From Planctomycetia bacterium (GTDB lineage Bacteria; Planctomycetota; Planctomycetia; Pirellulales; JALHLM01): a DNA stretch of 48,043 bases. This document shows positions 2,796-20,325 of this stretch, piece after piece (the stretch's first letter is position 1; every line of letters starts with the position of its first letter). The position numbers were made by a program, and so were the translations under genes. The notes below the pieces were generated by a model that saw only the letters and a program-made list of their open reading frames with translations, ran no database searches and was not told where the DNA came from. Where the stretch lies: the NCBI GenBank assembly GCA_034440135.1, contig JAWXBP010000339.1:1-48043 (forward strand), given 5' to 3'.

Positions 2796-3036
2796 CGCCG
2801 CTCCTCCGGGTCACAATGGGCTCGCGGCCGTCGAACAATCGCCGCTGACCGATCTCATCGTCGTCGCTGACCCACGTGTCCAATCCGTCGTCGACCTCGA
2901 CGTTGGCGAACAACTGCCCCGCGCGGTGCCGCTTCAACTCCACGCGCGCCACCACGCGCGTCGGCACGCCGCCCGGCCCGCGTTGGTAAACGATCAACAC
3001 CCCCGGGCACGGCAACAACAGGTCTTCGCTCGTCAT
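2773..3036 (-). CDS. Small island protein of unknown function
   Basis: An 87-residue protein beginning MTSEDLLLPCPGVLIVYQRG, with a beta-rich first half and an acidic centre (VEVDDGLDTWVSDDDEIGQ). I do not recognise a family. The start was chosen because it overlaps the stop of the CsrA-like gene as ATGA (3033-3036), and its own end overlaps the start of the winged-helix gene by 23 nt. These overlaps make it part of a tightly packed minus-strand operon behind the recombinase. The longer in-frame extension upstream is Arg/Gly-rich shadow sequence of the preceding gene and was rejected. Confidence 0.55.
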   Translation of the reverse strand: MTSEDLLLPCPGVLIVYQRGPGGVPTRVVARVELKRHRAGQLFANVEVDDGLDTWVSDDDEIGQRRLFDGREPIVTRRSGDGPKPAA

Positions 3037-3296
3037 CGCAAACCCTCCCGCCGACGACAGAGACAATCGTCGCCGGCGTCGCGCTGCAACGCCTGCACTT
3101 CCACGATCGCCTCGTTCACGGCCACCATCCCGATCGCCTTCCCGCGCACGACTCCCACCGCCGGCGGCGCCACGATCCTCCATTCGATCGCCGCCCGCCG
3201 GCGGCACCCACGACTCGCGATCAGCACGATCGGCCCGTCGCTCGAATCGAGCACCAAAGCCTCCACGTCCGAAGTCGACAAACAAAGCGCTCCCAT
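3033..3296 (-). CDS. Possible CsrA-like island protein
   Basis: An 87-residue protein starting MGALCLSTSD, immediately after the recombinase stop (4-nt gap). Residues 20-55 resemble the CsrA/RsmA beta-strand pattern: an I-V-L-I strand, a basic turn, then RIVAPPAVGVVRGKA, which aligns with the 'I-x-A-P-x-x-V-x-V-x-R' signature of CsrA. The N-terminal strand is divergent and the protein is longer than the usual 60-65 residues, with a Cys/Arg-rich tail. CsrA-like proteins in islands would bind GGA hairpins in mRNA. This assignment is tentative; the gene itself is supported by its operon position and its ATGA overlap with the next gene. Confidence 0.5.
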   Translation of the reverse strand: MGALCLSTSDVEALVLDSSDGPIVLIASRGCRRRAAIEWRIVAPPAVGVVRGKAIGMVAVNEAIVEVQALQRDAGDDCLCRRREGLR

Positions 3297-3300
3297 CGCT

Positions 3301-4263
3301 TCATCCTCCTTGCTGACGTTGAAACAGTTGATCGAACTCCACCGGATGCGGCGCACGCTCCACCGCCTCCCGCAACCACTCCGTCGCGTCCACGTACAAC
3401 TCGCTCGTCGCGATCGACGAGTGATCCAACATCGCCCGCACCGCATGGGCGCCGCCGACGCGCGCCACCTGCGTTCCGCAGGTCGCCTTCAACGCGTGCA
3501 GCTTGTACCACTCGCCGCGGCGAACGCCGGCGGCCGCTTGAATCCTTCGCCACTCGCGATAGAGCGTTCGCCAGGTCGCGTACGGCCAGGCAAACACGCG
3601 CGCGTCGGCCGAGCGAATCGCCACCAGGTGGCGCACGACGACTTCCTTGAGCGGCTTCAAACGCTCGACGCCGCACTTGTCTTCCTCCGCGCGCACGCGA
3701 AGCGTGCGGCGCGCGAGATCGAGGTCACTCCATTCGAGCGACAACATCGCTTGCCGACGAATGCCCACCTGGCTCGCGACGACGATCCACGCGCGCCACC
3801 ATGCCGCCGGGGTCACGCCAGCGATCGCCGGCGCGACCGCCACGCCGCACGCGGCGTAGATTTTCCCGAGGAGCTCCTGCGGCGACGGCCGCGGCCGTCG
3901 CCGCGGCAACTTGAGCGGCTTCGCCCAAGGCACTTGCGCTATCAAGCTCAACGCGTCACGGTTACGCGGGCCTGCCGGCCCCGCTTTCGCAAGGATGGCG
4001 CCGATCGCCGCCAGGTGCTTATTCACCGTCGCCGGCGAGAGTGATTTTCCGCGCCACGCGCGCTTCGCGAGCTCCGCTCGAAACGTCGCCATCGTCAAGT
4101 TGGAAACAGCGTCGATCGGAGGATCCTCCGTCAGCGACCGCCACAACGTCAGCGCCTCGCGATACGCGGCCAACGTCTTCGGCGCAGCCTGGGGCAAAAA
4201 GTGCGGCTCGTACGTGGAGTAATAAAAGTCCCCCACGCGCAGCAGCACACGCTGCAGCGTCAT
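3301..4263 (-). CDS. Tyrosine recombinase/integrase of the tRNA-Glu element
   Basis: A 320-residue phage-type integrase. Residues 10-110 form a SAM-like core-binding domain (TVNKHLAAIGAILAKAG). The catalytic domain shows R169 (VGIRRQAMLSLEW), a candidate beta-hairpin lysine K196, H256 in LHALKATCGTQ, H281 in MLDHSS and the nucleophile Y290 in SELYVD. The usual box II HxxR reads HxxK (K259), a conservative but uncommon change at a catalytic arginine. The gene heads a minus-strand operon and starts about 380 bp from the tRNA-Glu 3' end, so it most likely integrates the element there. Length is typical for the family. Confidence 0.85.
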   Translation of the reverse strand: MTLQRVLLRVGDFYYSTYEPHFLPQAAPKTLAAYREALTLWRSLTEDPPIDAVSNLTMATFRAELAKRAWRGKSLSPATVNKHLAAIGAILAKAGPAGPRNRDALSLIAQVPWAKPLKLPRRRPRPSPQELLGKIYAACGVAVAPAIAGVTPAAWWRAWIVVASQVGIRRQAMLSLEWSDLDLARRTLRVRAEEDKCGVERLKPLKEVVVRHLVAIRSADARVFAWPYATWRTLYREWRRIQAAAGVRRGEWYKLHALKATCGTQVARVGGAHAVRAMLDHSSIATSELYVDATEWLREAVERAPHPVEFDQLFQRQQGG

Positions 4264-4640
4264 GGTGCGTTCCTCGCGTTTTACAAACGGCGTTCACGCA
4301 CGCGACATAAGAAGCGAACGTGAACTAGAGTTGCTTAAGGGACGCTCGTTGTACCGCGCGTTTCAGCCGTCGGCAACACTTTTCGCCAGCGCCGCGCAGC
4401 GAAACGGCCGTTGCCCGGAGGCAACGGCCGTCTTCGATGTGCGTGCGGAGAAGCCTTAAGCGGTCACATGCAGCGGACGCGAGGAGCGGAGAATCCGCAA
4501 CTTTTCCGCTGAATCACCGTTGGAGTCCTCGCGGTGGCTCCCTTCTCCCCACGCATTCTATCAACCACAACTCGCACCGCGAGCCGCGAGAATTTTCTGC
4601 CAAAAAGAGGTCACCCGAATCAAACTCCGGTGCCCACAAC
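4264..4640. other. Recombinase upstream region and attachment-site flank
   Basis: This gene-free stretch lies between the recombinase start and the tRNA-Glu 3' end. It would hold the recombinase promoter and integrase arm-binding sites. The only structure recognised is the 12-bp hairpin at 4404-4431. No convincing open reading frame is present on either strand. Confidence 0.5.
4404..4431. repeat. Perfect 12-bp hairpin with 4-nt loop
   Basis: acggccgttgcc (4404-4415), loop cgga, then ggcaacggccgt (4420-4431). There is no T-tract on either side, so it is not a canonical intrinsic terminator. Its position between recombinase and tRNA fits either a terminator for the leftward tRNA transcript or an integrase/excisionase binding structure. 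Confidence 0.55.
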
Positions 4641-4668
4641 TACCCCCAGCGGGAGTCGAACCCGCGTT
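4641..4668. other. Candidate attachment site (3' end of tRNA-Glu)
   Basis: The T-arm and acceptor 3' half of tRNA-Glu face the recombinase gene. Elements of this type usually recombine within this part of a tRNA and rebuild it on integration, which fits an intact tRNA at the border. The matching direct repeat expected at the other element end is not in the window, so exact core limits are unknown. Confidence 0.35.
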
Positions 4669-4713
4669 GCCGGACTGAGAACCCGGAGTCCTAGGCCACT
4701 AGACGATGGGGGC
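4641..4713 (-). tRNA. tRNA-Glu (anticodon CTC)
   Basis: A 73-nt cloverleaf reads on the minus strand. The 5' end at 4713 starts GCCCCCA, pairing with TGGGGGT before discriminator A at 4641 (one terminal G-U). The anticodon arm has stem CCGGG/TCCGG, closed by one G-U pair, around the loop TTCTCAG, giving anticodon CTC with T33 in place. The T-arm carries GGGTTCGACTCCC. The CCA end is not encoded. It is intact despite the neighbouring integration, and its 3' end faces the recombinase. Confidence 0.95.
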
Positions 4714-4996
4714 CTTCAACTACTGCCAAGCCCCAAATTCTAAATCGCGGTCCGTGCCACGGCAACCGCAGGCGTGCGGAAATCATGGGCCGCAGTCTGC
4801 GCCAGGAATGGTGTGCTGGAAAATACGATTTGCGGAGCAAGACCTGCCCGGATCGCCCGAATTCCCCACAGGGCGAACTGTGCCGCGAGCGCCACGCAGG
4901 GCTGAGGGCGGTTCGATCTGCTCTGGCGTTTGCCCGGTCGACCCCTAGAATGAGGTCGATTTCCGCCTTTGCTGTGTTTCAGGAGTTTGCCTGCCC

Positions 4997-5578
4997 GTGG
5001 CCAAGAATCCCGTGATCGTCACCGCGCCGGACGGCAGCCGGATCAACTTACGAGATCCCTTCGTGGCCGGTTTTTTGGCCTGGCTCATCCCTGGCGCGGG
5101 GCATCTCTACCAGGGTCGGACCACGAAAGGCATCATCTTCCTGACGTGCATCCTGGGCACCTTCGCCTATGGCGTCTTTATCGGCGGATCGCAGGTCGTC
5201 TACGCCTCGCTGCGGGCGGAAGATTACTACCGCCTTTCGTTCGTGGGCCAGGCCGCCGTGGGCTTGCCGGCGTTGCCGGCGCTGGTGCAGCATTTCCGCG
5301 TCGAACGCAAACAGCCGCCGCTGTGGAACGGCTGGATGGCCCCGCCGGACGTCATCAAACGCGGCAATCCAGGGATGTCGGAATTGGATCGCCTGCAGGG
5401 CGACCCCGGGCGCGATTTCGACTTGGGAACGACGTTTACGATCATCGCCGGGCTGCTCAATGTGCTGGCGATTTACGATGCCGCCAAGGGACCGATGTTC
5501 ATGCCGCCGGACGAGCGCGAAGCCAAGCGCAAAGCCGCGGAGGGAAATACGTCGACCGAACCAGGCACGGGGAGTTAA
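4997..5578 (+). CDS. DUF6677-type membrane protein
   Basis: A 193-residue protein starting at GTG 4997, with aggag about 11 nt upstream. Hydrophobic segments near residues 22-40 (VAGFLAWLIPGAGHLYQG), 45-68 and 155-165 indicate a small inner-membrane protein. The motif AWLIPGAGHLYQGRTTKGII is typical of the planctomycete DUF6677 family and related TM2-like proteins. The C-terminus (PPDEREAKRKAAEGN) is charged and probably cytoplasmic. It is followed 3 nt later by another small membrane protein, so the two likely form an operon. No enzymatic function is known. Confidence 0.8.
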   Translation: MAKNPVIVTAPDGSRINLRDPFVAGFLAWLIPGAGHLYQGRTTKGIIFLTCILGTFAYGVFIGGSQVVYASLRAEDYYRLSFVGQAAVGLPALPALVQHFRVERKQPPLWNGWMAPPDVIKRGNPGMSELDRLQGDPGRDFDLGTTFTIIAGLLNVLAIYDAAKGPMFMPPDEREAKRKAAEGNTSTEPGTGS

Positions 5579-5581
5579 GCA

Positions 5582-5788
5582 ATGACAAGCGGACTATTGC
5601 TGGCGATCGGCCCCGTGCATTTGATGCACGTCGTGCCGCTGTTGGTCTCAGTCAGCCTGGTCTATTCCGCTACGCGCTGCGAATCGACGGAAGAAATCAT
5701 GCGCGGGGCCTGGAAAAGCGCCGTCACGTTCGGCGGTTTCCTGGTCGGCATCTTCATCGTGCTGGCGTTTTTGTCCTGGCTCGTTTGA
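5582..5788 (+). CDS. Small two-helix membrane protein
   Basis: A 68-residue protein with two predicted membrane helices (about residues 4-28, containing HVVPLLVSVSLVYSA, and 47-67, ending GIFIVLAFLSWLV), joined by a short charged loop TRCESTEEIMRGAWKS. A ggggag site lies 7 nt before the ATG, inside the end of the DUF6677 gene. The spacing implies co-transcription and perhaps a joint membrane complex. The family has no recognised function. Confidence 0.75.
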   Translation: MTSGLLLAIGPVHLMHVVPLLVSVSLVYSATRCESTEEIMRGAWKSAVTFGGFLVGIFIVLAFLSWLV

Positions 5789-5813
5789 ACCAGGCGACCC
5801 CGGTCGCTTTCGC

Positions 5814-6407
5814 CTATCGACCGGTCGAGTTGCTCGGGGCCACCGGCGCAAGTTCTTCATCGTCGTCGGAAGGCGACTCGCTGCGCGCCGGAATGACGAG
5901 TTCGACGCCAATCGGCAATAGCTCTGGATTCGAGATCAACGCTCGGTTGGCCTTCAAGAACTCGCCCGCCCGGGCGGGATCTCCCAAGTACCGATCCGCT
6001 AGGGACGCCAAGGTGTCCCCATCCATGACGCGGTGCTTGCGCTGTCCCGCGCCTGCCGACGAATCGGTCTCGTCTCTCCATGCGCTAGACGTGCCGGCGG
6101 ACACGTCGCTCAGCGGCTCTTGCGGAAAGGACTTGGCTAACGCGGGAGGCGGCGCAACCAGGTCCACCGGCCCGCGCTGTTCCGATACAACGTCAACGGA
6201 GGGCGCGCGGTTGATCTTGCCCAAGAGATGCGTGCCTGGCCCCTCGGTCATCGGCGGCTTCTTCACCGTGATGCGCTGCGGCGCAACGCCGTTCTCGGCC
6301 GAGCTTTCCGGCTTGCGCTTGAACGTCAGGGCCGCGACGATCGCGACTACGAGCACGACAAAGATCACCACGGCCTTGAGCGGCGGCGGCTGGGTTTCTT
6401 GATCCAT
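5814..6407 (-). CDS. Membrane-anchored LysM-domain protein
   Basis: A 197-residue protein with an N-terminal cytoplasmic tip, a single membrane helix (residues 11-29, LKAVVIFVVLVVAIVAALTF) and a Pro/Ser-rich linker. A LysM domain occupies about residues 122-175 (HRVMDGDTLASLADRYLGDP, then LLPIGVELVIPAR). LysM domains bind peptidoglycan or related glycans, so this protein probably tethers the membrane to the wall in the periplasm. AGGAG sits about 11 nt upstream of the ATG. It converges on the small membrane protein gene with 25 nt between stops. Some planctomycete tail-fibre-like LysM proteins look similar, but the membrane helix argues for an envelope role. Confidence 0.8.
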   Translation of the reverse strand: MDQETQPPPLKAVVIFVVLVVAIVAALTFKRKPESSAENGVAPQRITVKKPPMTEGPGTHLLGKINRAPSVDVVSEQRGPVDLVAPPPALAKSFPQEPLSDVSAGTSSAWRDETDSSAGAGQRKHRVMDGDTLASLADRYLGDPARAGEFLKANRALISNPELLPIGVELVIPARSESPSDDDEELAPVAPSNSTGR

Positions 6408-6598
6408 AGCGGCAAGGGCTCCTGATCGTTACCCATCGGAGCGGGCGGGAGCCGCACTTTCGCGCCCCGCGCGGAATACCGCGAATTCCGTCTGGGAAAA
6501 CTCTGCGGCCGTCAAAGGCGTGCTTTGGCCGTTGCCGGCAACTATACTAATCGCCGGCGGAAATCGCTCCTCGTCAAGCAACTCGCGACCCACGAACC

Positions 6599-9500
6599 AT
6601 GAAACGACGACCCTTGCGCCGCGTCGTCTCCCGAGGACTCGAGAAACGAGCCCTGCGTTTGGAGTCGTTGGAATCGCGCGCGCTGCTGAGCGGCGCGCCG
6701 CCGGGATATTTGGCCGGGCCCGAGTTTCGGGTGAACACCTTCACTGCGGGCAACCAGCAGTTCGATCCGTTTAACGCCCAAAACGTGGCGATGGACGCCG
6801 ATGGTGACGCTGTGGTCGTGTGGGTGAGCGATTCGCAGGACGGCAGCGACCGCAGTATCCATGCCCAGCGTTACGCCGCCGACGGCACGGCGGCCGGCGA
6901 CGAGTTTCAAGTCAGTCTGTACACGACGAACAACCAGATGAACGCGTCGATCGCAATGGACGCCGATGGCGATTTCGTCGTGACCTGGAGCAGCAAGGGG
7001 CAAGACGGTTCGGACTATGGCGTTTACGCGCGTCGCTTCAACGCCGCTGGCGTGCCGCGCGGCGGCGAATTTCGCGTGAATCAAGAGTCCGCGGGCTATC
7101 AACGACTTTCGACAATAGCCACAGATGCGCAAGGCAACTTTATCGTCGCCTGGGCCGAGCGACCGTCCGAGCTACAAATCTGTCCCTGTCAAATCATGGG
7201 GCGCAGGTACGACATGGATGGCGTGCCCTTAGGGGACGAATTTCAGATCAACGAACCCTCGACCGATTTTGTTACAGAGCCGCACGTGGCGGTCAACGGA
7301 CGCGGTGACTACGCGGTCGTCTGGCGGCGGAGCCAAGCCGCTGGGACGGACGACGTCTATGGCCGTAACTTCGCAGCGGACGGCACGCCGCGAAGCAGCG
7401 AATTTCGCGTCCACCAGCGCACGGAGAACCAACAAATTCGCTCCGGCGTAGCGATCACGGCCGCAGGCGAGGTCATCGTTACCTGGCACAACCAGTCCAC
7501 GGTCGCCGGCGTGATCGAACCGCGGCACGTCTTCATGCGCCGCTTCGCGCTGGACGGCACGCCGCTTAGCGACGACACGCGCGTTAATACTTCGCCAGAG
7601 CCAGAACATCGCAACCCCGCCGTCGTCGTGACGCCGGCCGGCGACTCGGTCGTGACTTGGGCCGGAAAGAATTTCGAGGAGCCCGGAAACAACACGTTCG
7701 GCGCGTTCCTTCAGCCGTATGACGCGAGCGGGAACGCGGTCGGCGGCGAAACGCTCGTCAACGTTACCACGGCGGGACAGCAACAATTCCCCGCGATCGC
7801 CACGGACGCCGACGGCGACTTTCTGGTGGCCTGGTCGAGCTTGGGCCAAGACGAAGGCAACGAATTCGGCATCTATGCCCGGCGGTTCGAGCGTGGCGCG
7901 GACAGATCGCCGCCCATCGTCGGCAATGTCTTCGTGGGAGGGGACGAGCATGCCATGCGCGAACGCGAGGTGCTCGTGCAACATCCCGAGCGGATGGTCG
8001 TGACGTTCAGCGAAGCGATCGATCTATCGCCGGGCGGGGCCCGCCAGCAGTGGCGTCTGCTGCGCAATGGCGTGGACGAAAGCGAGCGACTGGCCGCGGC
8101 GACGTACGTGTTCAACGGCGCGGCGAATCGCCACGAAGCGACGCTCGATTTCCAGACACCGCTGCCGGACGGCGACTACGAGTTGATCGCCTTGCCCACG
8201 CTTCGCGATCTCTCCGGAAAAATGCTGGACGGCGACTACGACGCCGTCGGCGGAGACGCGTTTACCCGGCGTTTTACGATCACGACTCCGGAAGCCAAGG
8301 GCCCTCAACTGTCGATCGCAACGGGAGACCTGTTGATCGACGACGGCGTGCCGGGCGCCATCGCGCGGGACGCGGCAGGCAATTTCATCCTCGTCTGGCC
8401 TGCTGCGGGGCAAGGCCTTGATATCCGAGCACAGCGGTACGACGTCAACGGCAACGCTGTCGGCCCGGAGATCGCTGTAAACAGTTTGCTTGCCGGCGAC
8501 CAGAAACAGCCGACCGTCGCGATGGACCATGACGGCAATTTCGCCGTGGTCTGGACGAGCATCAACGAACTCGGTGAACAGGACGCGGACAATGAAGACA
8601 TTTACCTGCGGCGCTTTGACTCCGCGGGCAATCCGTTGGGCGCCGAGCTGCGCGTCAACGTCTCCGACAGCGGCGTGACGTCGCCGTTTGTGCAACAGCG
8701 GCCAACCATTGGCATGAGCCCCACGGGCGAGTTCGTCGTGGCTTGGGAAACGAGCGCACATCCAGGCGGCGGCGGAGTCGATATTCACTTCCAGAGATTT
8801 AACGCCAACGGTTCGCGAAGCGGAATCGAGACGCGAGCCAACTTTGAAGAGGAGGACACGCAGCGTTTCCCGCACGTGGCGATGGATGCGTACGGCGACT
8901 TCGTTTTGACTTGGACCAGCCGTCGACAAGACGGTTCGATCCCCGTCAGCGATGGTGTCTACGCCCGCCGTTTCTCAGCGGCCGAGGGAACGCTCGTCGG
9001 CAGCGAATTCCTCGTGCATCGCGATGATGTGGCGGGAGAACAGCGCAGATCAACCGTGGCGATGGATTCTAGCGGCAACTTCGTGATCGCCTGGCAATCG
9101 GTCGCGTTGGGCGCTGAGGACATTTACGCCCAGCGATACGCGTCCCGCTTAAACGGCGCGCTCAGCTATGAATTTGCTGTCGGCCCTCGATTCAGGGTCA
9201 ATCAGCAAACGGCCGGTCCACAGCAGCGCCCCGTGGTGGCGATGGACGCGGATGGCGATTTTGTCGTGACCTGGCAGAGCAACCACTCGCCGCAATTGAA
9301 CGATATCAAATATCGTCGCTATGCCTGGAATGGCACGGCGCAGAGCGACGAGTTGGCGATTGCCGATGTTGGAACGCCCACGCAGCAGACCTTGCCGCAG
9401 TTGGCCATGGACAGCCAAGGCAATTTCGTTCTGGGCTGGCATGCGGAAGAATCGCCGACCCCGGGCCTCTTCGCCCAGCGCTTCGTCGGTTTCGTGAATT

Positions 9501-11050
9501 CGCCCCCCGCCGCCGACGCCGGAGGATCGTACGCCATCGCCGAGGGGCAGCCGCTCCAACTCAACGCCGCGGGGAGCGCCGATGTCGATGCCGGTCACGC
9601 CGCGCAACTGCGCTACGATTGGGATCTCGACGGCGACGGCGCCTTCGACGACCTGGTCGCCGCCGATGCATTGGCGACAGTCACTTGGAACACGCTTTCC
9701 AGCCTGGGCGTCGTCGACGACGGCCAATATGCGATCTTCGTGCGCGTCACCGATCCACTGGGAGGCGTGTCCGTCGACAGTGCGACGCTGAGTTTGTCGA
9801 ACACCGCGCCCAGCCAACTCGTGCTCGTGACCGGCGCCGCGATCGACGAAGGCGGCGAAGCCATGGTGACCGGCACGTTCGTCGACCCGGGATTTCGCGA
9901 CGAACACCAACTGCGGATCGACTGGGGCGACGGGACGATCGAAACGCTATCAATTCCAGCCGGGTTACAATGGTTTTCCTTCAAGCACGTGTACGTTGAC
10001 GACAATCTCGCCGACTCCTTTCGGATCACCGCCCGCGTGATCGATGATGACGAAGGAATGAGCGATCCGGCTGAGACGTCCCAAACGGTTGCGAACCTGG
10101 CTCCGTTTTCTCTGGCGGTTCAACTCAGCGATGCGAGAGAGGGCGAAACGTTGACGGTCGTAGGTAGCTTCTTGGACGCTGGAACGGGCGATGTACATGA
10201 CGTCTACGTCGATTGGGACGACGGCCAAGGTCTAGTGAAATTGCCCGCCGCTGCAGTTGTGGCGCGCCAATTCACCGCCGCGCATGTGTACCGCAATAAT
10301 CGAAACGATGTCGAAATTCGGTTGCGCGTCCACGACGACGACGGCGGAGTCGTGCAAACGACGCGGCGCGTGAATGTCGAAAACGCATCACCGGCGAATG
10401 TGGTGCTAACATTGGCCGTAAACGTTGTGGCCGTGGACGGGTTGGTGCAATTGAGTGGGACTTTCACCGACGCCGGTCTTGACGACCGACATATTGTCGA
10501 CGTGTTTTGGGGCGACGATTCATCACCACAGTCGATTCCGTTGCCAATTGGCGCACGAAACTTCGTCGCCACCTATCGCTATCCACTCCCAACAGCTTAC
10601 GTCATCTCCGTCACAGTCTCAGATGAAATGGATGAATTGGCGACTGGAACGACCACCGTTCAAATCATCTGCGGAGTTTCCGGCGATACCAACGCCGATT
10701 GCGTCGTGAACGTGGCGGACCTCAACGCCGTCCGCAACTTTTTCGGCACCGGCGTGCCTGGCGGCCCGCGCGTCCCGGGAGACGTCTATCCCTTCGACGG
10801 CGTCGTCAATGTGAACGATCTCAATCAAGTGCGCAACCAGTTCGGCGTCAGCGCCCCGGCGCCGCAGTCGAATCACGAAAGCACCATCGCGCCGCGCATC
10901 GACGAGCACTCGGTCAGTCGATCCTTGACAGCGCTGGACGCTGTCTTCGCCCGTTGGACGAACAACGAGCTGCCTCCACGGTTGTTGCTCGACGACGCCG
11001 GTCAGCCGCGTGGAACCCAGCGACGCAAGGCCGTGATGAGCTCCCGCTAG
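6599..11050 (+). CDS. Giant LEPR-XLL surface protein: two 7-repeat propellers, PKD-like domains, dockerin
   Basis: A 1483-residue secreted protein. The N-terminus is basic with the LEPR-XLL-like motif LESLESRALLSG. Residues 41-440 hold seven repeats of about 55 residues with the core VAMDADGDFVVTW and the ends RRF..G..LGGEF. An SbsA-like Ig domain (about 440-560) follows, then seven more repeats to about residue 965. The 7+7 count suggests two beta-propellers. Four PKD/Ig-like modules follow, starting with AADAGGSYAIAEGQPLQL (about 968-1355). A dockerin-like pair ends the protein (GDTNADCVVNVADLNAVRN near 1360 and FDGVVNVNDLNQVRNQFG). No Shine-Dalgarno is seen. Likely role: extracellular scaffold or adhesin. 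The stop interlocks with the convergent protease stop. Confidence 0.85.
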   Translation: MKRRPLRRVVSRGLEKRALRLESLESRALLSGAPPGYLAGPEFRVNTFTAGNQQFDPFNAQNVAMDADGDAVVVWVSDSQDGSDRSIHAQRYAADGTAAGDEFQVSLYTTNNQMNASIAMDADGDFVVTWSSKGQDGSDYGVYARRFNAAGVPRGGEFRVNQESAGYQRLSTIATDAQGNFIVAWAERPSELQICPCQIMGRRYDMDGVPLGDEFQINEPSTDFVTEPHVAVNGRGDYAVVWRRSQAAGTDDVYGRNFAADGTPRSSEFRVHQRTENQQIRSGVAITAAGEVIVTWHNQSTVAGVIEPRHVFMRRFALDGTPLSDDTRVNTSPEPEHRNPAVVVTPAGDSVVTWAGKNFEEPGNNTFGAFLQPYDASGNAVGGETLVNVTTAGQQQFPAIATDADGDFLVAWSSLGQDEGNEFGIYARRFERGADRSPPIVGNVFVGGDEHAMREREVLVQHPERMVVTFSEAIDLSPGGARQQWRLLRNGVDESERLAAATYVFNGAANRHEATLDFQTPLPDGDYELIALPTLRDLSGKMLDGDYDAVGGDAFTRRFTITTPEAKGPQLSIATGDLLIDDGVPGAIARDAAGNFILVWPAAGQGLDIRAQRYDVNGNAVGPEIAVNSLLAGDQKQPTVAMDHDGNFAVVWTSINELGEQDADNEDIYLRRFDSAGNPLGAELRVNVSDSGVTSPFVQQRPTIGMSPTGEFVVAWETSAHPGGGGVDIHFQRFNANGSRSGIETRANFEEEDTQRFPHVAMDAYGDFVLTWTSRRQDGSIPVSDGVYARRFSAAEGTLVGSEFLVHRDDVAGEQRRSTVAMDSSGNFVIAWQSVALGAEDIYAQRYASRLNGALSYEFAVGPRFRVNQQTAGPQQRPVVAMDADGDFVVTWQSNHSPQLNDIKYRRYAWNGTAQSDELAIADVGTPTQQTLPQLAMDSQGNFVLGWHAEESPTPGLFAQRFVGFVNSPPAADAGGSYAIAEGQPLQLNAAGSADVDAGHAAQLRYDWDLDGDGAFDDLVAADALATVTWNTLSSLGVVDDGQYAIFVRVTDPLGGVSVDSATLSLSNTAPSQLVLVTGAAIDEGGEAMVTGTFVDPGFRDEHQLRIDWGDGTIETLSIPAGLQWFSFKHVYVDDNLADSFRITARVIDDDEGMSDPAETSQTVANLAPFSLAVQLSDAREGETLTVVGSFLDAGTGDVHDVYVDWDDGQGLVKLPAAAVVARQFTAAHVYRNNRNDVEIRLRVHDDDGGVVQTTRRVNVENASPANVVLTLAVNVVAVDGLVQLSGTFTDAGLDDRHIVDVFWGDDSSPQSIPLPIGARNFVATYRYPLPTAYVISVTVSDEMDELATGTTTVQIICGVSGDTNADCVVNVADLNAVRNFFGTGVPGGPRVPGDVYPFDGVVNVNDLNQVRNQFGVSAPAPQSNHESTIAPRIDEHSVSRSLTALDAVFARWTNNELPPRLLLDDAGQPRGTQRRKAVMSSR

Positions 11051-14000
11051 CGACGCGGCTTGGCAGGGCGAATCGGCGTTACCGCGGCGGCTTGCCAATT
11101 CTGAAAGAGCAGATCGGCCGCGCGTTGGCGTTGCTCTGTATGTTGCGTTGGCGTGTGCCGCGTCATCGCGCTAGGTGCGCCAGCGGGCGTAGCACCGAAC
11201 TGATTGCGCACGGCGTTCAGATCGCTGATGTCGACGTCGTTGTCGCCATCGGCGTCCCCAAGTCCTTCACCGCCGAAGTTGTTGCGAACATTGTTCAAGT
11301 CAGTGATATCGACGCGGCCGTCCTCATTGGTATCGCCGACGAGGCGGGGCGCGACCGTGACGGTAAAACTAACAGGATTTGCAAACGCGCCGGCGGTATC
11401 GAACAGCACCAGGGTGACGGTGGACGATCCCAGCGCATCGTCGGCGAGCGTGAATCGAAGCGTCCCGTCGGCGCTCACCTGCGGCCGTCCGGCGACGCCC
11501 GCGAAGATCGCCGTATGCGTATCATAAGTCGGATAGAAGAAGACGTTCTGCGTCAGCTTTTCGTCGTCCGGTCCCACGCTGACGTTGGTCGCCCAGTTCG
11601 GAATGATGTGCGCGCCGGAGTTCTTCGGCACCACGACGTTTTCGCCGCGCGTGAACGAAGGCGGATCGTTGACCGCATTCACCACGATGCGATATGACTT
11701 CGCGGCGGACACGGCCCCCAAGCTGTCGCGCGCCACGATCGACAGATTGGCAATCCCGTTGGCGTTGGGCGCCGCGCGAAATCGAATCGTGCCGACGGCG
11801 TCGATCTGCGGCCGACCGAGCGCCGTGAACAGTCCGGGATTGTCGTTCTCAACGACGAATTCCACGGTTTGACTCGCCCGCTCATTCTCCGCCCCTGGTG
11901 AAATACTTGTGATCCGGCCGGCGTAAACCTGCGGCCCGCCGTCCTCCTGGGCGTCGGTGACGTCCGGCCCGAGGACAAAACTCGGCGCGTCGTTCACCGC
12001 GTTGACGATCAGCCGGAAGGTTTGCGGATCCGACGTATCCTGTCCGCCGCGTTCCGTGCCGCCGCCGTCTCGGAGGCGCACCCGTACGCCGGTCTCGCCA
12101 AAAGCGTCCGGGGCAAGTCGGAAGCTCAATCGGCCCAGACCGTCGATAGTTGGCGGCACGGCGAACAACGACGGGTCGTAGCCGTCGACGAGATAGCTCA
12201 ACGGTGGTTGCGGCGTATCGTCCTCGCCGTCGCCATAGGATTCCAACTCCGCGAAGTCGAGATTCATCGTTGCGTTCGCGGGAGCGTCTTCGGCAAAAAT
12301 CAGCGTGTCGCTGCCGAACAGCAGCGACGGCTTGTCGTTGACCGGCCGAACGGTGACGGTGAAGGTCCGCGTGAAGACGCCGTTGTCGGCCGGCGACAGC
12401 AAGTTCAAATCAGCGCCGCCGTCGGTAACGGTGACGGTGACGCGCGCCGCGCCCCACTTGTTCGCCGCGGGCGTGAATCGCACGGCGCCGGCCTTGGTGA
12501 TGATGTTGTAATCGCGCACGAGCGCCAGGAACAAAGCGGGATTGTCGGAGGACACTTCAATCTTGAGCGGCTGCACTTCGCCGCCGCCTGCGGTGATGTC
12601 AGACAGTACAATCTTCGTTTCCAAGGCGTCTTCGTCGACCACTTGCGGCGGAATCTCATTCAACGTCGGCGGATGGAGCACGGAGCGCACTCCGATATCA
12701 AGCAACGGCAACACTTGATTCTCGTTGCCGGTCAACTCCACGTAATGAGCGCCATTGACTTTTGCATTGGTGAGCAACGCCACGCGGTTCGACCAGCCGC
12801 TCGATACGACCACGTCCGGTAGGCCATCATTGTTCAAGTCGCCGGCGGCCACGCTGAGATGTTCCGACGCGCCAAACCGCGCGACGCCGACGTTGTACGG
12901 TTGCACCGCGGCGAAACCGACGGTCCCTTGCCGTCGTAAATTGCGCAACACGCTGAGGCCGCGCACCGCACCGCCGCCGACCTTCGTGGTCACCAGCAGG
13001 TCGTTGTCGTTGTCGCGGTCAATGTCCGCGACCGCGAGCGACATTGGCGAGGCGGCCAAATCGAAGTCCTGCCGCGTCGTAAAGTTGCCCTGAGTGTCGT
13101 TCCACCGCACCGTCACGCTGCTATCGAAAACGTTCGCGGTCACCAGGTCGCGGTGGCCGTCGTCATTCAGATCGGCGAGCGACACCGACGTCGGTCCTCG
13201 GCCGGTCGCAACGGTCGACGCGACTTGGAACTCGCCCGCCACATTGCGCAAGACCGTGACGTTGTTCGAACCGAAATTGGCGACCAGCAGCTCGGGATAG
13301 TCGTCATCATCCCCATTCAATTGCGCTGACGCAATCGCTCGGGGCGATTGACCCACCGCAATGATTTGCCGAAACGGCGGCGAGTCCGGAAACACGCCGC
13401 CGCCGGAGTTTCGCAGCACGCGCAAGTTTCCTTCGGACTCGTTCACCACGGCCAGGTCCGTTCGGCCGTCCTGGTCCCAGTCGCCGGCCGTGATCGCAGT
13501 CGGCGCAAACCCAGCCGCGTACACGCCGCCCAAGACAAACCAACCGTGACCGTCGCTCAAGAACACCGTGATCGTACTGCCAAACTGATTCGTCACGGCG
13601 ATATCGAGCCCGTGCGCGCCGTCGAGTTGCGCGGTCACGATCGACGAGGGGCCGCTCGCCAAAGTACTCGCCGCGGAAATGGCGCCCAGCCGCTCCAGTA
13701 CGCCGCCGTTGTTACGGACGATCGTCACGTCGTTCGACAGCGCATTGGCCGTGGCGACGTCCTGATCGTTGTCGCCATCGTAGTCGAAGAGCGCCACCTC
13801 CTGCGGGGCGTCGCCCACGGGCGTGACCGATTCGGTGAACTTGTTCCCCAGCGGCGCGGTAGTCGCCTGATCGTCGGGCGTCACGGCCCTGACCGCATAC
13901 ACGCCGCCGCCAAGATTGTTGAACTCGTACACGCCGGCGCTATTCGTCTGGTCAATCTCGTCGCCGTCGCTCTTGTGGCCGGAGTGATCTCTGTCGAGGT

Positions 14001-17000
14001 ACACGTCGGCAAACGGCATCGGCAATTCACCGTCATTGTGGACGCCGTCGCCGTTGGCGTCGCGATAGTACCTGCCGGTAATCCGCCCTTTGACGCTGAC
14101 GCCGTAGTTGCTGAACTGATAGAGGCCGAAGTCGCGACCGACGGCGGCCTCGGCGGCGTCCAACTCGACGACGTATTCCGACTCCGCCTGATCCGCGCGC
14201 GGCGACGTCTGGAGCCAGCCGCTCAACTCCGCCACGCGCACCTTGAACGGCAGGAACGGCTGAATGTTTGTCAGCACGTAGTTGCCGGCCGGATCTGTGA
14301 TGGCAATCGGCTCGCGCGTACCTTGCGAATCGATCGGAAAGCGATCCAGCACGCCGTTGCCGTTCAGATCGAGATAGACCTCGCGGCCGGACAATGGCGG
14401 CTCCACGCCCGCGGCGAAGATGCCGTTCTGATCGAGGTCGTGAAACACGCGTCCGCGGATTTCCGCCCGCAACGGCAACTCGCCGAAATCGAAACCAGAC
14501 GCCGACTCGCCGGCGTACAGGTCCGCGCGGTGCTGTCCGCGCGAGTTGACAAACGGATGTACGCCGGGTTCCTCGGCGACGGCTACGTTCAGATCCGCAA
14601 AACCATCCGAGTTCAAGTCGCCCACGGCGAGACTGGCCGGAGCGCCCGCCGGCGAAAGTCGCGATGTCCCTTCGATGGTGAACTTGCCGTGGCCGTCGTT
14701 GAGCAGGGTCTCGACGCGCCTCAAATCATCGAGCGCCACGGCCGCGTCGAGATCGCCGTCGCGGTCCCAATCAGCGAGCGCAACGTCTTGTGGCAGGCCC
14801 GGCAGTTCAAGCGTCGCTTCCGCGGTCGCTTGAAAGACGCCATCGCCACGGTTCACTAGCACGCCGAACTCCCGCGCGGCGCGGCGTAGGCCGATCAAAT
14901 CCAAGTCGCCATCGCCGTCCATGTCGGCGGACTGATAAGGCGTGACCGCGTTGACCAGGTTAGTCGACTGCGAGGCGTCGAATTGACCGCCGCCGAGGTT
15001 CAACAACAGGTCCGTCCCCACGATCAGGTCGACGGTCGCGCTCCCTGACTGATTCGGATTGAAATTTCCCGCCACGATCGCTTCCGCCAGTCCGCTCACG
15101 TCAAAAGATTGCGACGTTGGAAAAACGCCCGCACGATTGTTGAGCGCCACGCGCAGTCTTCCGCCATCGGAGCCCGCGTTCGGCTCCAGCCAGACGAGAT
15201 CGACAAATTGATCGCCGCTCACGTCCACGAGCAGCGGCGCACTGGGGAAGTTCGCGGTGTCGATGACATGTTCCGGAGCGGCGAACGTCCCGTCGCCGCG
15301 ATTGCGCAACAAGGTCAGATTGCCCGCCGACGCGGTATGCGCCACGATGAAATCAACGTCGCCGTCGCGATCGACATCGCCGTGCGCGAGCGTGCCGGCG
15401 GCCCATGGGACGCCAGTGGAAACATAAACCGGTGCGGCGAAATTCCCCTGACCGTTGTTCTTCAGAATGATCAGCCGGTCGGACGTGGCGTCCGGATTTG
15501 ACTCGAGCGCCACCAAGTCGAGATAAGTGTCCGCGTCCACATCGACGGCCACCAGATCGGCGATTGACACGTTGGCTTCCAAAGCCGAAGTTCCGGCAGC
15601 CGTCAACCAACTGGGCGAGGTGCGTTTCCAACCCGGCTGCGATTCCGTCGCCACGTAGTGCACGCCTGGCGGCAAATCCTCGAACGCATACACGCCATCC
15701 GCATCCGTGACGACGAATGTCTCATCGCTATCGCGCTTGCCGTCACGATCCTTGTCGAGATACACGACCAACCCGGCCAGGGGCGGCTCGTTGGCGTCGC
15801 GAATTCCGTCGCCGTCCTGATCTTGAAACCGCACGCCGCGCAGTTCGGCCTGGTAGCGTTCCACGGCGCCGACGTCCGCCGTCATGACGCCGTTTCCGTC
15901 GCCGTCCTGGGGACGTGGTGCGCCGAGTTGATCAAATGCCGGCGAGCGCGCGGGATCGGCGGCATCGATCGCGAGGCTATTTGGCAATAGTTGATGTACC
16001 AGCGGCGTGCCGTCGGACGGCAAGCCGACCAGCCCCGCAGCGGCCTGTGAGTTCACTTGATCCGTTGCCCGTCCAAATCCCGTCGCGCCGTTCGAAGCAC
16101 CGACCAGGTTGTACCCGAGACTGGCCAATACGCCGCCGAGATCGATAGGAGTAACGCCCGTGCGGTTTCCGGCAATCAAGCTGCTCTTGATAGCCAGCGT
16201 TCCGCCCGCTTCGCCATAGATGCCGGCGCTCCCGGCATCGGAATTGTTCTGCGCGATCGTGGCGTGAACCATCGCCGTGACGGCCTCGGCCGCGCTAAAT
16301 ACGCCCGCGCCGTTCGCCGTGGCATCGTTGTTCGAGACGGTCACGTTTTCCAGCACGAGCGTCGCGGCGGCGAGCACCGAATCCTCGTCATAGCTCGCCT
16401 CGTAGCGCTGCAGGAAGATTCCCCCGAGATCGCCGGCTCCTTTGCCGTTCCAGACGATCGTGACCTGATTCACCGAATTGGCGGCGACGCGCGGATTGAG
16501 CTGGCTGCCACTGGTCGTCGAGTTCACGCGGAACTCGGCGCTGCGCGGATGGCCTTGATCGTCGAACTGTCGCGCGTACACGCCCCACCCTTCGCCGTCT
16601 CGTCCCAAGCTGGCGAACGTGGCGATCAGGCCGCCGTCGGCCAACGCCGCCAAGGCTGCTCCACGTTCGAGACCAGTCGAAGTGGTGCTCAATGGAACGA
16701 CGCCGGCAATCGGTTGTCCCGAGGAATTCAACAACCGATATTCCAGTTGCTCTGTCGCACCGCCATCGCTGATGCGGCTCCACGCCACGGCGTAGCCGTC
16801 GCGCGTGGCGACCAGGCTCGTCGCCAACAACGACGCTTGGGCAGCGCTGGCAATCACCAGTTCCGTGCCGAGCGGCTGCGCGGAGGCGTCAAAGAGTTGG
16901 CCGCGCAGCGAGAATCGACCATCCACCTCTTCGGTGGACCAAACTACCAGCGACCTGCTATCCGCGTCGATCGCCGCGAGACCGCCCGTTTGTTGCCCGG

Positions 17001-19956
17001 CAGTAACCGAATTTACCCTGCGATCACGGACTTGCTCGCCGCTCAGGTAAAACCGCGCGAACACGCCGTCATTGTCACCAGCGCCCATGCCGTTCCAGAC
17101 GACGAGGATTTCGCCGTCATCGTCGATCGACACGCTCGGCGCCGTTTGATGTCCGGCCGCTGCGGGATAGGGAACGACCTCCGTCTCGTCGAGCATGCCG
17201 TTCGCGTTCACGCGGCGAACGTGAATGCCCCAGCCTGCGTCGTCGGCGAGGTAACCCTGCCAGGCAATCACGCCCTCGCCCGACTTGTTCATCGCCACGG
17301 TCGGATGCACGCGTTGCGGACCGCTGATGTTGACGAGTAACTGCGGCCCGGGATTGCCGGCAGCGTCGAATCGGCGCGCGTAGATTCGCCCGGAGTCGCC
17401 ACCATCGAAACTTTCCCAGACGACCAGACTGTTGTTGGCGTCATCCATTGCCACGACCGGCAGTTGTTGTTGCGACGCGTGCGGCGTGTTCACCAGGACT
17501 TCGCCGCCGACGGTCTGCAACGAATCGAGCGCCGGTCGCGTGCCGTTCGCTGCCGCCGCGTTGTATACGCCGCCGCCCTCGTTCGCCGTGTTTGCCACGA
17601 ACGAGGTTGCGCGCGCGTCGGCCCGCGCACCATCGCCGTTGTAGAGGCCGCCGCCAAGCTCCGCTTCGTTATCGCGCACGACGACGCCGTCCAACTCAAG
17701 TTCGCCCAGATTGCGAATGCCGCCCCCTTCGGCGTCTGTCTGCCCTCCCCGGACGGTCAGCTTTTCGAGTCGCAGTTTTCCGCCAGGACGCACGTCGAAC
17801 ACGCGGTCGATCGAGTTACCGTCGATCACCGTCGCGGCGAAGCCTTCCCCTGTGATAGTGATCTCCGTCGTGATATCGAGATCGCCGAACTGAGCGGCGT
17901 CTTCGAGGCCAGGACGCGAAAGTTGAAAGACCGTCGGTCCCAAGGAATTGAGCGCGGACAGAATGATCTTCGTCGGCGCGCCACGATCGGTGGCCTGGAG
18001 AATCGCCTCGCGCAGCGTCACGCCCGTCGCGGGATCGTCCAACGGGCTTGTCACGCGAATCACGCCCGCCTCTTCGACCGCGACATCAAAGCCTTCCAGG
18101 CTGCCGCCGGCGACCGAGTTCCCGACGACATCGAACACGTTGTCCGGCAAGCTGCGCACGTCATACCGCGCGCTGTCATCCGCCGTCCACGAACCACCCG
18201 GCGGCGTCAGGATGTACGTGACCTCGATCGATTTGGCGTCGTTCGCCGTGCTGTACGAAACCGGCGCCGCCTCGCTCGTCCAAGAGCTGTTCCCCAGCCG
18301 CACGACGGATAATTTCGACAGTGGCAGCCGATCGCGATCAATCAAGTCGTTGTCGAAGTAAGTGACTCTGATCTGCAGCGACATACCGTGCGCTTCCGTG
18401 ATCGTCGCAATAGGCGTCGTCAACGCGCGGGGCGCGATCGTATCTGTTTTCAACGCTTTGTACGCGTTCAACCGGCCGGCGCTGGCCACGACGCCTTGCA
18501 AGCCGGGCACGTGATCGACCCCCTCAAGGATCGCGTCCCGCACTTCCTTGACCGTGGCCTGCTCAAAATGACTCCAGATGAGCGCCGCCACGCCGCTCAC
18601 GTGCGGCGCGGCCATGCTGGTGCCGTTGCTCGTCTTGTAGCAGGAAACCTGTACGCAGTCCCCGGCCCAAGTGCTCAGGACGCCGATGCCCGGCGCGGCG
18701 AGATCGACCGACGTAGGTCCATAGTTGCTGAACTTCGCAAGTTGATCGGCACTGTCGACGGCCGCGACGGAGAGGATGTTGTCCAACTCGTAACTGGCGG
18801 GATAAAAGGCGTTGGAGTCGGTGTCGACGCCGGAGATTCCGTCCTGCCCGTTGCCCGCCGCGGCGACGAACAGGATGCCCTCATCGCCTGCACGCTCAAT
18901 CGCATTCTCCAGATCGACTTGCGGACCATAACTGCCGAAGCTGGCGTTCAGGACGCGAATTGGCGTCCCGCGCTGCCGCATATCCTCAGCGTAGTTGATC
19001 GCCCGAATGGCGTCCGACGTGACGCCCCGGTTGTTCGCGTCGAGGACCTTGAGCGACATCAATGAAGTTTTCCACGCCACGCCAGTGACGCCAATGCCGT
19101 TGTCCCCCACGGCGCCGATGGTTCCGGCCACGTGCGTGCCGTGCCCATGATCGTCGTAGGGATCGTGGTCATCACATGTGGGGCTTTTAGGATCGCCATT
19201 GCAGGGACGGTCGTTGACGAAGTCGTAACCGTGGATGTCGTCGACGAAGCCGTTGTTGTCATCGTCAACATTTGGCAGACCGTTCGACTCCGTGACATTC
19301 CTCCAAATGTTGGCAGAGAGATCCGGATGATCGTAGGCAATGCCCGTATCGAGCACAGCCACGACGACCGATTCCTTGCCGACTGTGATGTCCCAAGCCG
19401 ACGGCGCATTGATGTCGGGTCCGGAATTCTGACCCGGCGTGGCTTGCCCGGTGTTGTTGAGACCGACCTGATCGACGAAGCGCACGTCGTCAGGAACTTG
19501 CGCGCCTTGAATCACGCTGTTCGGGCCATAAGAACTGACCCAAGGATTCGCCAGCAACGCCGACGCGATTTCCTCCTGGCTCGCAGTCGAAGACACCAGT
19601 ACCTGTCCGGGCAACCCAAGGCCGCGCACCCCCAGAAACCAAGGGCCGATGCGAGCGTTGTTCAAGAGCGGCGCCACACCAGCGGGACCGCTTGCCGTGT
19701 TGAGCGCCTCGGGCCGAAGCCGGACAATCCATTCGTGTTTCGGCGCTGCTGATTGCAACGCGATCGCACCGCTACCGGGCTCATCCTCTACGGACGCAAA
19801 CCAGGCTGGCGATACCGTGTCGTAATCCAAAGCAACCGGATTCAGCACCGCAAGCAAACGTCGCGACTCAAGCGGTTCGACCCATGCATGAGAACGCGTG
19901 GCTCGCGCGCGCTGGCGCAACTTGTCTGGACGTCGCGCACGGATAGGTTGATTCAT
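11047..19956 (-). CDS. Giant subtilisin-family (S8) protease with beta-helix, propeller, SdrD-like, FG-GAP, cadherin-like and dockerin regions
   Basis: About 2969 residues; ATG 19956 is preferred over an upstream TTG. VEPLESRRLLAV is the export motif. The S8 catalytic domain (about 160-490) has D203 (VVVAVLDTGIAYDHPDL), H272 (HGHGTHVAG), N369 (AAAGNG) and S447 (NGTSMAAPHVSG), so it looks active. Then come a CSLREA-type beta-helix (VTLREAILQA) interrupted by seven propeller repeats (plus coordinates about 16390-17515), SdrD-like domains (about 15590-15845, 14195-14475, 13860-14100) and two sets of seven FG-GAP/VCBS repeats (about 14500-15580 and 12740-13850). Cadherin-like domains follow (about 11350-12690), then a dockerin (GDTNEDGRVDITDLNNVRNN). 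Role: secreted, probably cell-surface protease. Confidence 0.88.
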   Translation of the reverse strand: MNQPIRARRPDKLRQRARATRSHAWVEPLESRRLLAVLNPVALDYDTVSPAWFASVEDEPGSGAIALQSAAPKHEWIVRLRPEALNTASGPAGVAPLLNNARIGPWFLGVRGLGLPGQVLVSSTASQEEIASALLANPWVSSYGPNSVIQGAQVPDDVRFVDQVGLNNTGQATPGQNSGPDINAPSAWDITVGKESVVVAVLDTGIAYDHPDLSANIWRNVTESNGLPNVDDDNNGFVDDIHGYDFVNDRPCNGDPKSPTCDDHDPYDDHGHGTHVAGTIGAVGDNGIGVTGVAWKTSLMSLKVLDANNRGVTSDAIRAINYAEDMRQRGTPIRVLNASFGSYGPQVDLENAIERAGDEGILFVAAAGNGQDGISGVDTDSNAFYPASYELDNILSVAAVDSADQLAKFSNYGPTSVDLAAPGIGVLSTWAGDCVQVSCYKTSNGTSMAAPHVSGVAALIWSHFEQATVKEVRDAILEGVDHVPGLQGVVASAGRLNAYKALKTDTIAPRALTTPIATITEAHGMSLQIRVTYFDNDLIDRDRLPLSKLSVVRLGNSSWTSEAAPVSYSTANDAKSIEVTYILTPPGGSWTADDSARYDVRSLPDNVFDVVGNSVAGGSLEGFDVAVEEAGVIRVTSPLDDPATGVTLREAILQATDRGAPTKIILSALNSLGPTVFQLSRPGLEDAAQFGDLDITTEITITGEGFAATVIDGNSIDRVFDVRPGGKLRLEKLTVRGGQTDAEGGGIRNLGELELDGVVVRDNEAELGGGLYNGDGARADARATSFVANTANEGGGVYNAAAANGTRPALDSLQTVGGEVLVNTPHASQQQLPVVAMDDANNSLVVWESFDGGDSGRIYARRFDAAGNPGPQLLVNISGPQRVHPTVAMNKSGEGVIAWQGYLADDAGWGIHVRRVNANGMLDETEVVPYPAAAGHQTAPSVSIDDDGEILVVWNGMGAGDNDGVFARFYLSGEQVRDRRVNSVTAGQQTGGLAAIDADSRSLVVWSTEEVDGRFSLRGQLFDASAQPLGTELVIASAAQASLLATSLVATRDGYAVAWSRISDGGATEQLEYRLLNSSGQPIAGVVPLSTTSTGLERGAALAALADGGLIATFASLGRDGEGWGVYARQFDDQGHPRSAEFRVNSTTSGSQLNPRVAANSVNQVTIVWNGKGAGDLGGIFLQRYEASYDEDSVLAAATLVLENVTVSNNDATANGAGVFSAAEAVTAMVHATIAQNNSDAGSAGIYGEAGGTLAIKSSLIAGNRTGVTPIDLGGVLASLGYNLVGASNGATGFGRATDQVNSQAAAGLVGLPSDGTPLVHQLLPNSLAIDAADPARSPAFDQLGAPRPQDGDGNGVMTADVGAVERYQAELRGVRFQDQDGDGIRDANEPPLAGLVVYLDKDRDGKRDSDETFVVTDADGVYAFEDLPPGVHYVATESQPGWKRTSPSWLTAAGTSALEANVSIADLVAVDVDADTYLDLVALESNPDATSDRLIILKNNGQGNFAAPVYVSTGVPWAAGTLAHGDVDRDGDVDFIVAHTASAGNLTLLRNRGDGTFAAPEHVIDTANFPSAPLLVDVSGDQFVDLVWLEPNAGSDGGRLRVALNNRAGVFPTSQSFDVSGLAEAIVAGNFNPNQSGSATVDLIVGTDLLLNLGGGQFDASQSTNLVNAVTPYQSADMDGDGDLDLIGLRRAAREFGVLVNRGDGVFQATAEATLELPGLPQDVALADWDRDGDLDAAVALDDLRRVETLLNDGHGKFTIEGTSRLSPAGAPASLAVGDLNSDGFADLNVAVAEEPGVHPFVNSRGQHRADLYAGESASGFDFGELPLRAEIRGRVFHDLDQNGIFAAGVEPPLSGREVYLDLNGNGVLDRFPIDSQGTREPIAITDPAGNYVLTNIQPFLPFKVRVAELSGWLQTSPRADQAESEYVVELDAAEAAVGRDFGLYQFSNYGVSVKGRITGRYYRDANGDGVHNDGELPMPFADVYLDRDHSGHKSDGDEIDQTNSAGVYEFNNLGGGVYAVRAVTPDDQATTAPLGNKFTESVTPVGDAPQEVALFDYDGDNDQDVATANALSNDVTIVRNNGGVLERLGAISAASTLASGPSSIVTAQLDGAHGLDIAVTNQFGSTITVFLSDGHGWFVLGGVYAAGFAPTAITAGDWDQDGRTDLAVVNESEGNLRVLRNSGGGVFPDSPPFRQIIAVGQSPRAIASAQLNGDDDDYPELLVANFGSNNVTVLRNVAGEFQVASTVATGRGPTSVSLADLNDDGHRDLVTANVFDSSVTVRWNDTQGNFTTRQDFDLAASPMSLAVADIDRDNDNDLLVTTKVGGGAVRGLSVLRNLRRQGTVGFAAVQPYNVGVARFGASEHLSVAAGDLNNDGLPDVVVSSGWSNRVALLTNAKVNGAHYVELTGNENQVLPLLDIGVRSVLHPPTLNEIPPQVVDEDALETKIVLSDITAGGGEVQPLKIEVSSDNPALFLALVRDYNIITKAGAVRFTPAANKWGAARVTVTVTDGGADLNLLSPADNGVFTRTFTVTVRPVNDKPSLLFGSDTLIFAEDAPANATMNLDFAELESYGDGEDDTPQPPLSYLVDGYDPSLFAVPPTIDGLGRLSFRLAPDAFGETGVRVRLRDGGGTERGGQDTSDPQTFRLIVNAVNDAPSFVLGPDVTDAQEDGGPQVYAGRITSISPGAENERASQTVEFVVENDNPGLFTALGRPQIDAVGTIRFRAAPNANGIANLSIVARDSLGAVSAAKSYRIVVNAVNDPPSFTRGENVVVPKNSGAHIIPNWATNVSVGPDDEKLTQNVFFYPTYDTHTAIFAGVAGRPQVSADGTLRFTLADDALGSSTVTLVLFDTAGAFANPVSFTVTVAPRLVGDTNEDGRVDITDLNNVRNNFGGEGLGDADGDNDVDISDLNAVRNQFGATPAGAPSAMTRHTPTQHTEQRQRAADLLFQNWQAAAVTPIRPAKPRR

Positions 19957-20325
19957 CACCAAGAACCCAGGGAGGAGACGCTACGACTCGGACGCCGACT
20001 GCGCCAACATAATTTTCCAAAAACCCCGTCCATCTTAACACAGTGGCGACACAGAAACCTTTCCTTGGAAACGCAATTTCCTGGGTACGGACGACGCACG
20101 CCCTACGTCCGGTATCCGGCGCTCTGAGCCTAAAAGCGGACGGACTTTGCCCGATGAGCGCGCAAATTCCCCAGATTTTCGAAAATCAAGTTCGCCTGCC
20201 GACCATGACGATGATGACGGTTGTAGGGGGAATCGTGACAGTAGCGTTTGCGCGGCCAATGCGGCCGCGCGTGATCCTTCCTACCACTCGAATCCGGCCA
20301 TGAAACCCTCCAACAGCGGTGGCAA
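19957..20325. other. Divergent intergenic region between protease and TonB receptor
   Basis: About 370 bp without a gene, which must contain both divergent promoters. No cobalamin-riboswitch box, Fur-like palindrome or convincing -35/-10 pair was recognised. An imperfect hairpin around 20087-20118 (gtacggac...gtccggtat) is the only structure noticed. An early ATG at 20300 is out of frame with the receptor. Confidence 0.5.

Follow-up and report, generated by a model that had tools for sequence, protein, structure and literature searches.

A predicted seven-bladed beta-propeller that appears nested within the beta-helix of a giant planctomycete S8 protease

The giant protease gene and its neighbour

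The window, i.e., the whole stretch of 48,043 nucleotides of planctomycete DNA that was analysed, contains two convergent genes whose ends overlap by four bases. One encodes a giant protease carrying the insert discussed below, and the other encodes the non-nested form of the insert's propeller family.

11047-19962, minus strand: giant S8 protease gene; 2,971 aa; TTG start, with an ATG two codons later; planctomycete-type N-terminus
18523-19374, minus strand: Peptidase_S8 domain; aa 197-480; PF00082, E=4.6e-58
6599-11050, plus strand: convergent neighbour gene; two free-standing seven-blade propellers of the same family; PKD; dockerin-like C-terminus

The first-pass annotation had named no strand for the propeller-bearing gene, which lies on the minus strand. 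The D, H and S motifs are all present in the translation (VLDTG, HGHGTHVAG and NGTSMAAPHVSG, the last with GTSMAAPH), which places the protein among the subtilases of family S8. Both gene products carry at their C-termini paired GDTNxDGxVDxxDLNxVRNxFG segments that are dockerin-like; Dockerin_1 is not among the Pfam matches to the giant S8 protein. The same propeller repeats are also encoded on at least five further contigs of the window genome (C52, C447, C363, C290, and C140).

The inserted propeller and its host helix

Behind the S8 domain lies a parallel beta-helix that is split by seven repeats of about 53 residues (aa 815-1190, window 16393-17520). The description given earlier, of a beta-helix that breaks off, is followed by repeats and then resumes its turns, agrees with where the segments sit: GGGIRNLGELELDGV (17683-17727) and NTANEGGGVYNAAAANG (17542-17592) on the N-terminal side and LVLENVTVSNNDATANGAGV (16300-16359) after the repeats.

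17527-18063, minus strand: beta-helix, N-terminal part; aa 634-812; TLREAI cap; GGG turns at 746, 770, and 796
17467-17520, minus strand: opening half-blade; aa 815-832; hmm 36-53; completes blade 7; 1.9 bits alone
17329-17460, minus strand: propeller blade 1; aa 835-878; 41.4 bits with the leave-out HMM
17146-17304, minus strand: propeller blade 2; aa 887-939; 37.1 bits
16990-17139, minus strand: propeller blade 3; aa 942-991; 32.2 bits
16840-16974, minus strand: propeller blade 4; aa 997-1041; divergent; 21.5 bits
16672-16800, minus strand: propeller blade 5; aa 1055-1097; the most divergent; 13.0 bits
16501-16653, minus strand: propeller blade 6; aa 1104-1154; 54.9 bits
16393-16494, minus strand: first part of blade 7; aa 1157-1190; hmm 1-35; 21.0 bits
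15847-16359, minus strand: beta-helix, C-terminal part; aa 1202-1372; choice-of-anchor Q cap at its end (aa 1316-1368)

A blade HMM of 53 positions was built from the repeats. Its leave-out version, made without sequences of the window or its orthologue, gives the giant protein 199.6 bits, against 9.6 bits for the best of 200 shuffled segments. The array opens with a half-blade (hmm 36-53), continues with six blades between aa 835 and 1154 and finishes with hmm 1-35. Since the two end pieces add up to one blade, the array bears in its sequence the signature of a velcro-closed propeller. The opening half-blade is weak alone (1.9 bits) but stands in the same phase as the half-blades of other arrays, and phase and blade count are the same in most other arrays of the window genome and its relatives; seven blades and closure, therefore, characterise the family as a whole and are more than the reading of one divergent example.

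An AlphaFold2 model of aa 628-1375, based on a shallow alignment of four sequences, has a mean pLDDT of 69. Its propeller part (model residues 188-562, mostly pLDDT 75-90) contains 28 strands (7x4), a count that takes in short bridges listed by DSSP as isolated residues. A Foldseek search of the PDB with this model returned hundreds of matches with propellers on top (best E 6.5e-10), among them the seven-bladed lectins PLL, PHL, and CV39L at a target-normalised TM of 0.62-0.68. Repeat phase, predicted strands and seven-bladed matches thus all support closure of the repeats into a seven-bladed propeller, as had been expected from the letters alone. Together, the repeat sequences and the predicted structure show the insert to be a beta-propeller with seven blades and velcro closure. 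Its repeat family is uncatalogued: the repeats match none of the models of Pfam or NCBIfam above the cut-off, and no sequence relative of them was found in the PDB. The family is expanded in the window genome, yet it is without a Pfam model.

Structure prediction had been proposed as a check on the nested arrangement, and it succeeded in part. The strands of the propeller and of the N-terminal helix were modelled, the latter mostly at pLDDT 80-92 between model residues 70 and 170, but the C-terminal half of the helix came out at low confidence (mostly pLDDT <50 in this first model with its four-row alignment); AlphaFold2 on the C-terminal helix alone gave a pLDDT of 39, with values <70 throughout. 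The label “CSLREA”, given to the helix in the first-pass annotation, did not hold: an NCBIfam scan of the giant protein at E<=1 did not return the CSLREA model, and the TLREAI motif is a resemblance only. Recognised instead is a choice-of-anchor Q domain (NF041518) at the C-terminal end of the helix, with 36.5 bits at an NCBIfam cut-off of 25, and the C-terminal part can be aligned to the cap regions of relatives whose helix is uninterrupted. The Pfam Beta_helix model (PF13229) stays below its gathering cut-off in the giant protein (13.1 vs 25.9 bits) and is passed by two relatives, L106 and L110.

Homologues with an uninterrupted beta-helix, which the first-pass annotation had suggested looking for, do exist and include a paralogue (L070) in the same genome. 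The two flanks of the insert were spliced, aa 812 directly to aa 1202, and aligned to seven such helices (L070, L104, L126, L128, L124, L061, and L108), with 200 shuffled C flanks for each. Against L070, the joined flanks score 365, while the N flank alone and the unspliced sequence both score 274. Across all seven helices the joined score exceeds that of the N flank alone by 91-168 and lies above the best of the 200 shuffled C flanks, and in every alignment the host residues on either side of the join are adjacent, with none lost or gained. The join sits within a single rung in six of these alignments, after the GG-G-x-x-N strand and before the strand that follows it, and L108 aligns slightly further on; in the window protein, a single rung contributes both the GGGVYN and the LENVTVSNN strand, and the propeller enters at the loop that connects them. 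These alignments are good evidence for the flanks being two halves of one parallel beta-helix in register, cut by the propeller, a continuity predicted from sequence, with the C-terminal half modelled at low confidence.

A beads-on-a-string arrangement, in which the propeller links two short, independent beta-helices, would agree with the low confidence of the C-terminal half in the AlphaFold2 model, and a serial order of helix and then propeller is indeed seen in another protein (L118). The N-terminal part, however, possesses an N-cap and no C-cap, the C-terminal part a choice-of-anchor Q cap and no N-cap, and both together make up one ordinary helix whose cut lies within a single rung in all comparisons but one; we consider two separate helices quite improbable. 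A propeller nested inside a single beta-helix behind the S8 domain is, in our judgement, very likely the correct description.

Filled and empty helices among the relatives

A genome of the same genus (G001) encodes an orthologue with the same insert and the same junctions, 76% identical over the fragment. The window genome is fragmented (534 contigs), and an error of assembly or binning could in principle have joined unrelated genes; the recurrence of the same junctions in this second genome and the occurrence of related nested forms in a relative (L055) whose genome, G080, is a single contig of 6.6 Mb led us to reject this explanation as extremely unlikely.

Among the other members of the S8 family, at least seven possess the helix without an insert (L070, L104, L108, L124, L125, L126, and L128), and L070 shares the S8 domain, the linker and the helix of the window protein with nothing inserted. 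Two proteins of two other genera (L054 in G124 and L055 in G080) carry two such propellers per helix, with complete rungs between them, at the turn before GGG, i.e., half a rung from the insertion point in the window. In five relatives (L105, L106, L107, L111, and L112) PD40 repeats, identified by Pfam in L105 and L106, break the helix, and rungs and cap resume behind them; in L109 and L110 the break consists of PPC domains, behind which the GGG rungs resume. A further member, L123, which comes from another family of the same class, has an NHL propeller (PF01436, E=7.8e-60) at a rung loop like that of the window protein. In proteins other than S8 proteases, the insert's propeller family is found free-standing or after a finished helix (L118). 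This comparison shows that members of the S8-helix family bear different closed beta modules, either at the loop used in the window protein or at the turn that precedes GGG, and that other members bear none; the beta-helix seems to serve as a framework into whose side different modules can be plugged. The nested architecture had been called rare, which is appropriate for this propeller family, elsewhere mostly free-standing, but not for the S8-helix family, in which nesting is recurrent.

In a tree of 25 propeller arrays the propellers of the window and G001 pair at 100/100, the four propellers of the double-array proteins L054 and L055 form a clade at 98/97, and all six nested arrays are set apart from the rest by a branch with a support of only 74/72; judging from these sequences, the nested propellers of the insert's family may share one origin. 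Their position on one side of that branch would fit a single ancient insertion from which all nested propellers of this family derive, with duplication, slippage, and loss since then and separate insertions of the other module types. However, the insertion loop of the window protein and L067 is half a rung away from that of L054 and L055, the clade of the four double arrays does not include the window pair, and the nearest host relative of the window pair is the uninterrupted paralogue L070 (81/85 in the host tree, which also contains a PPC pair at 100/100 and a PD40 group at 71/66). We rather doubt, therefore, that one event accounts for all nested propellers of the family. Whichever history holds for this propeller, the variety of module types means that helices of this one kind have received inserts on several separate occasions.

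The region following the helix consists of SdrD_B-like domains and FG-GAP propellers:

15610-15852, minus strand: SdrD_B-like domain 1, N-terminal part; aa 1371-1451; first ~84 of 113 positions; PF17210
14563-15570, minus strand: FG-GAP propeller 1; aa ~1465-1800; PF13517, E=1.6e-31; probably nested in SdrD_B-like domain 1
14473-14550, minus strand: last strands of SdrD_B-like domain 1 (HRADLYAGESASGFDFGE); aa 1805-1830; suggestive, from the joining test
14113-14472, minus strand: SdrD_B-like domain 2, uninterrupted; aa 1831-1950; hmm 2-112 of 113; 148 bits
12763-13815, minus strand: FG-GAP propeller 2; aa ~2050-2400; PF13517, E=2.4e-35; after the first part of SdrD_B-like domain 3

The uninterrupted domain 2 served as internal control; its own sequence sits in the seed of the HMM. 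For the interrupted domains, the first part was joined to 32-residue windows along the whole protein, and the 1,470 windows were ranked. The expected continuation of domain 1 comes 20th among the 1,470; the real end of domain 2 is placed above it, as is at least one further region. On these grounds, the nesting of FG-GAP propeller 1 in this domain is probable. At the same place in domain 1, a seven-bladed propeller of the lactonase type (PF10282) is present in L055 (E=7.7e-17) and L054 (E=3.3e-15), PD40 in L106 and PPC in L110. The SdrD_B-like domain adjoining the helix, thus, probably also hosts lineage-specific nested propellers. A similar nesting of FG-GAP propeller 2 in domain 3, the first part of which lies at aa 1957-2038, is plausible by eye, but the C-terminal piece ranks only 144 out of 1,470; the joining test does not support it, and we do not claim it.

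Known systems and a possible mechanism

Domain insertion into solenoids and side domains on beta-helices are already known. In autotransporter passengers (domain 2 of Hbp, IgA1 protease), a beta-helix linked to a serine protease domain bears a globular side domain. These passengers differ from the window protein in protease family, in the fold inserted and in their autotransporter export, and to our knowledge no exchange between unrelated propellers has been observed in them. Surface helices of the choice-of-anchor Q/CSLREA type share the TLREAI-type start, the GGG turns and the NLVG..AID.G..DQ.G..R..D.GA.E cap with the window helix, which differs from them in being interrupted by another complete domain. 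The lectins PLL, PHL, and CV39L (PDB 6RG2, 6FHX, and 6GXS) match the seven-bladed fold over its full length at 13-16% identity, a resemblance of fold only, and are free-standing and sugar-binding, whereas the window propeller is nested in a helix. The nearest known system found is CylK (PDB 7FH6, 7RON), a biosynthetic enzyme composed of a beta-roll and a seven-bladed propeller (PMC8916777). CylK is rank 4 in the Foldseek search with the window model, although the propeller family has no sequence match in the PDB; its beta-roll is N-terminal and its propeller C-terminal, end to end, unlike the nested propeller of the window protein (PMC8916777). A literature search, with most subscription papers outside its reach, found nothing on propellers nested in a beta-helix or on the insert's family.

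The two ends of a closed propeller lie side by side, and such a module could, therefore, occupy a loop at the surface of the solenoid and leave the latter unbroken and undistorted. The beta-helix would then be a stiff stalk whose loops tolerate modules, and the inserted modules would presumably protrude sideways from it as putative binding heads, keeping the secreted protease attached to its substrate, to polysaccharide or to the cell surface. By exchanging modules, lineages would acquire other targets, with protease and stalk staying the same. The nested propeller and the recurrent modules, taken together with these inferred steps of stalk and binding heads, form a statement that we regard as likely on the whole. 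A binding role of the nested modules, argued by analogy, is put forward tentatively and may prove wrong.

Alternatively, the modules may be baggage without function, i.e., closed propellers that are brought into loops by accidental recombination and are retained through drift. This would be in line with the divergence of the window repeats (blade 5 has 13 bits) and with the several family members without an insert. It is less easily reconciled with the comparison of window protein and orthologue, since the insert is 81% and the whole fragment 76% identical between the two species, the frame is open and the boundaries are kept, nor with the recurrence of nested modules in many lineages; we consider it unlikely that the modules are mere baggage.

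Extended to the whole S8 family, the stalk-and-head reading becomes that of a plug-in platform, in which the protease, its helical stalk and an arm of SdrD_B-like domains, all of them conserved, would repeatedly have captured and exchanged unrelated closed beta modules. Its sockets would be two rung loops, the cap, and the strand-end loop of SdrD_B-like domain 1, its modules the insert's propeller family, PD40, NHL, lactonase-type, and FG-GAP propellers and PPC, and each lineage would thereby acquire new heads for binding that point sideways. This wider proposal could, in our view, be right nearly as readily as wrong. One scaffold with different complete propellers at the same loops across lineages and with empty-site relatives, also in the same genome, provides a natural series of filled and empty helices for how one fold enters another. 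It suggests where a beta-helix can bear large cargo and, as a design rule, the use of closed modules with adjacent ends. It also provides a hypothesis on what the very large proteins at the surface of planctomycetes may do, and exposes a propeller repeat that is common in the class of the window organism and is named by neither Pfam nor NCBIfam.

Two further arrangements were noticed among the relatives. In L129 (ORF 3014-13333, minus strand), propeller-like repeats without a Pfam family (aa ~1155-1530) split the choice-of-anchor Q cap (DQFENPRPVD ... TDMGAVE). In L109 (ORF 6537-19898), more than 10 PPC-like domains in a row (aa 955-2405, ~1,450 residues) are nested in one beta-helix.
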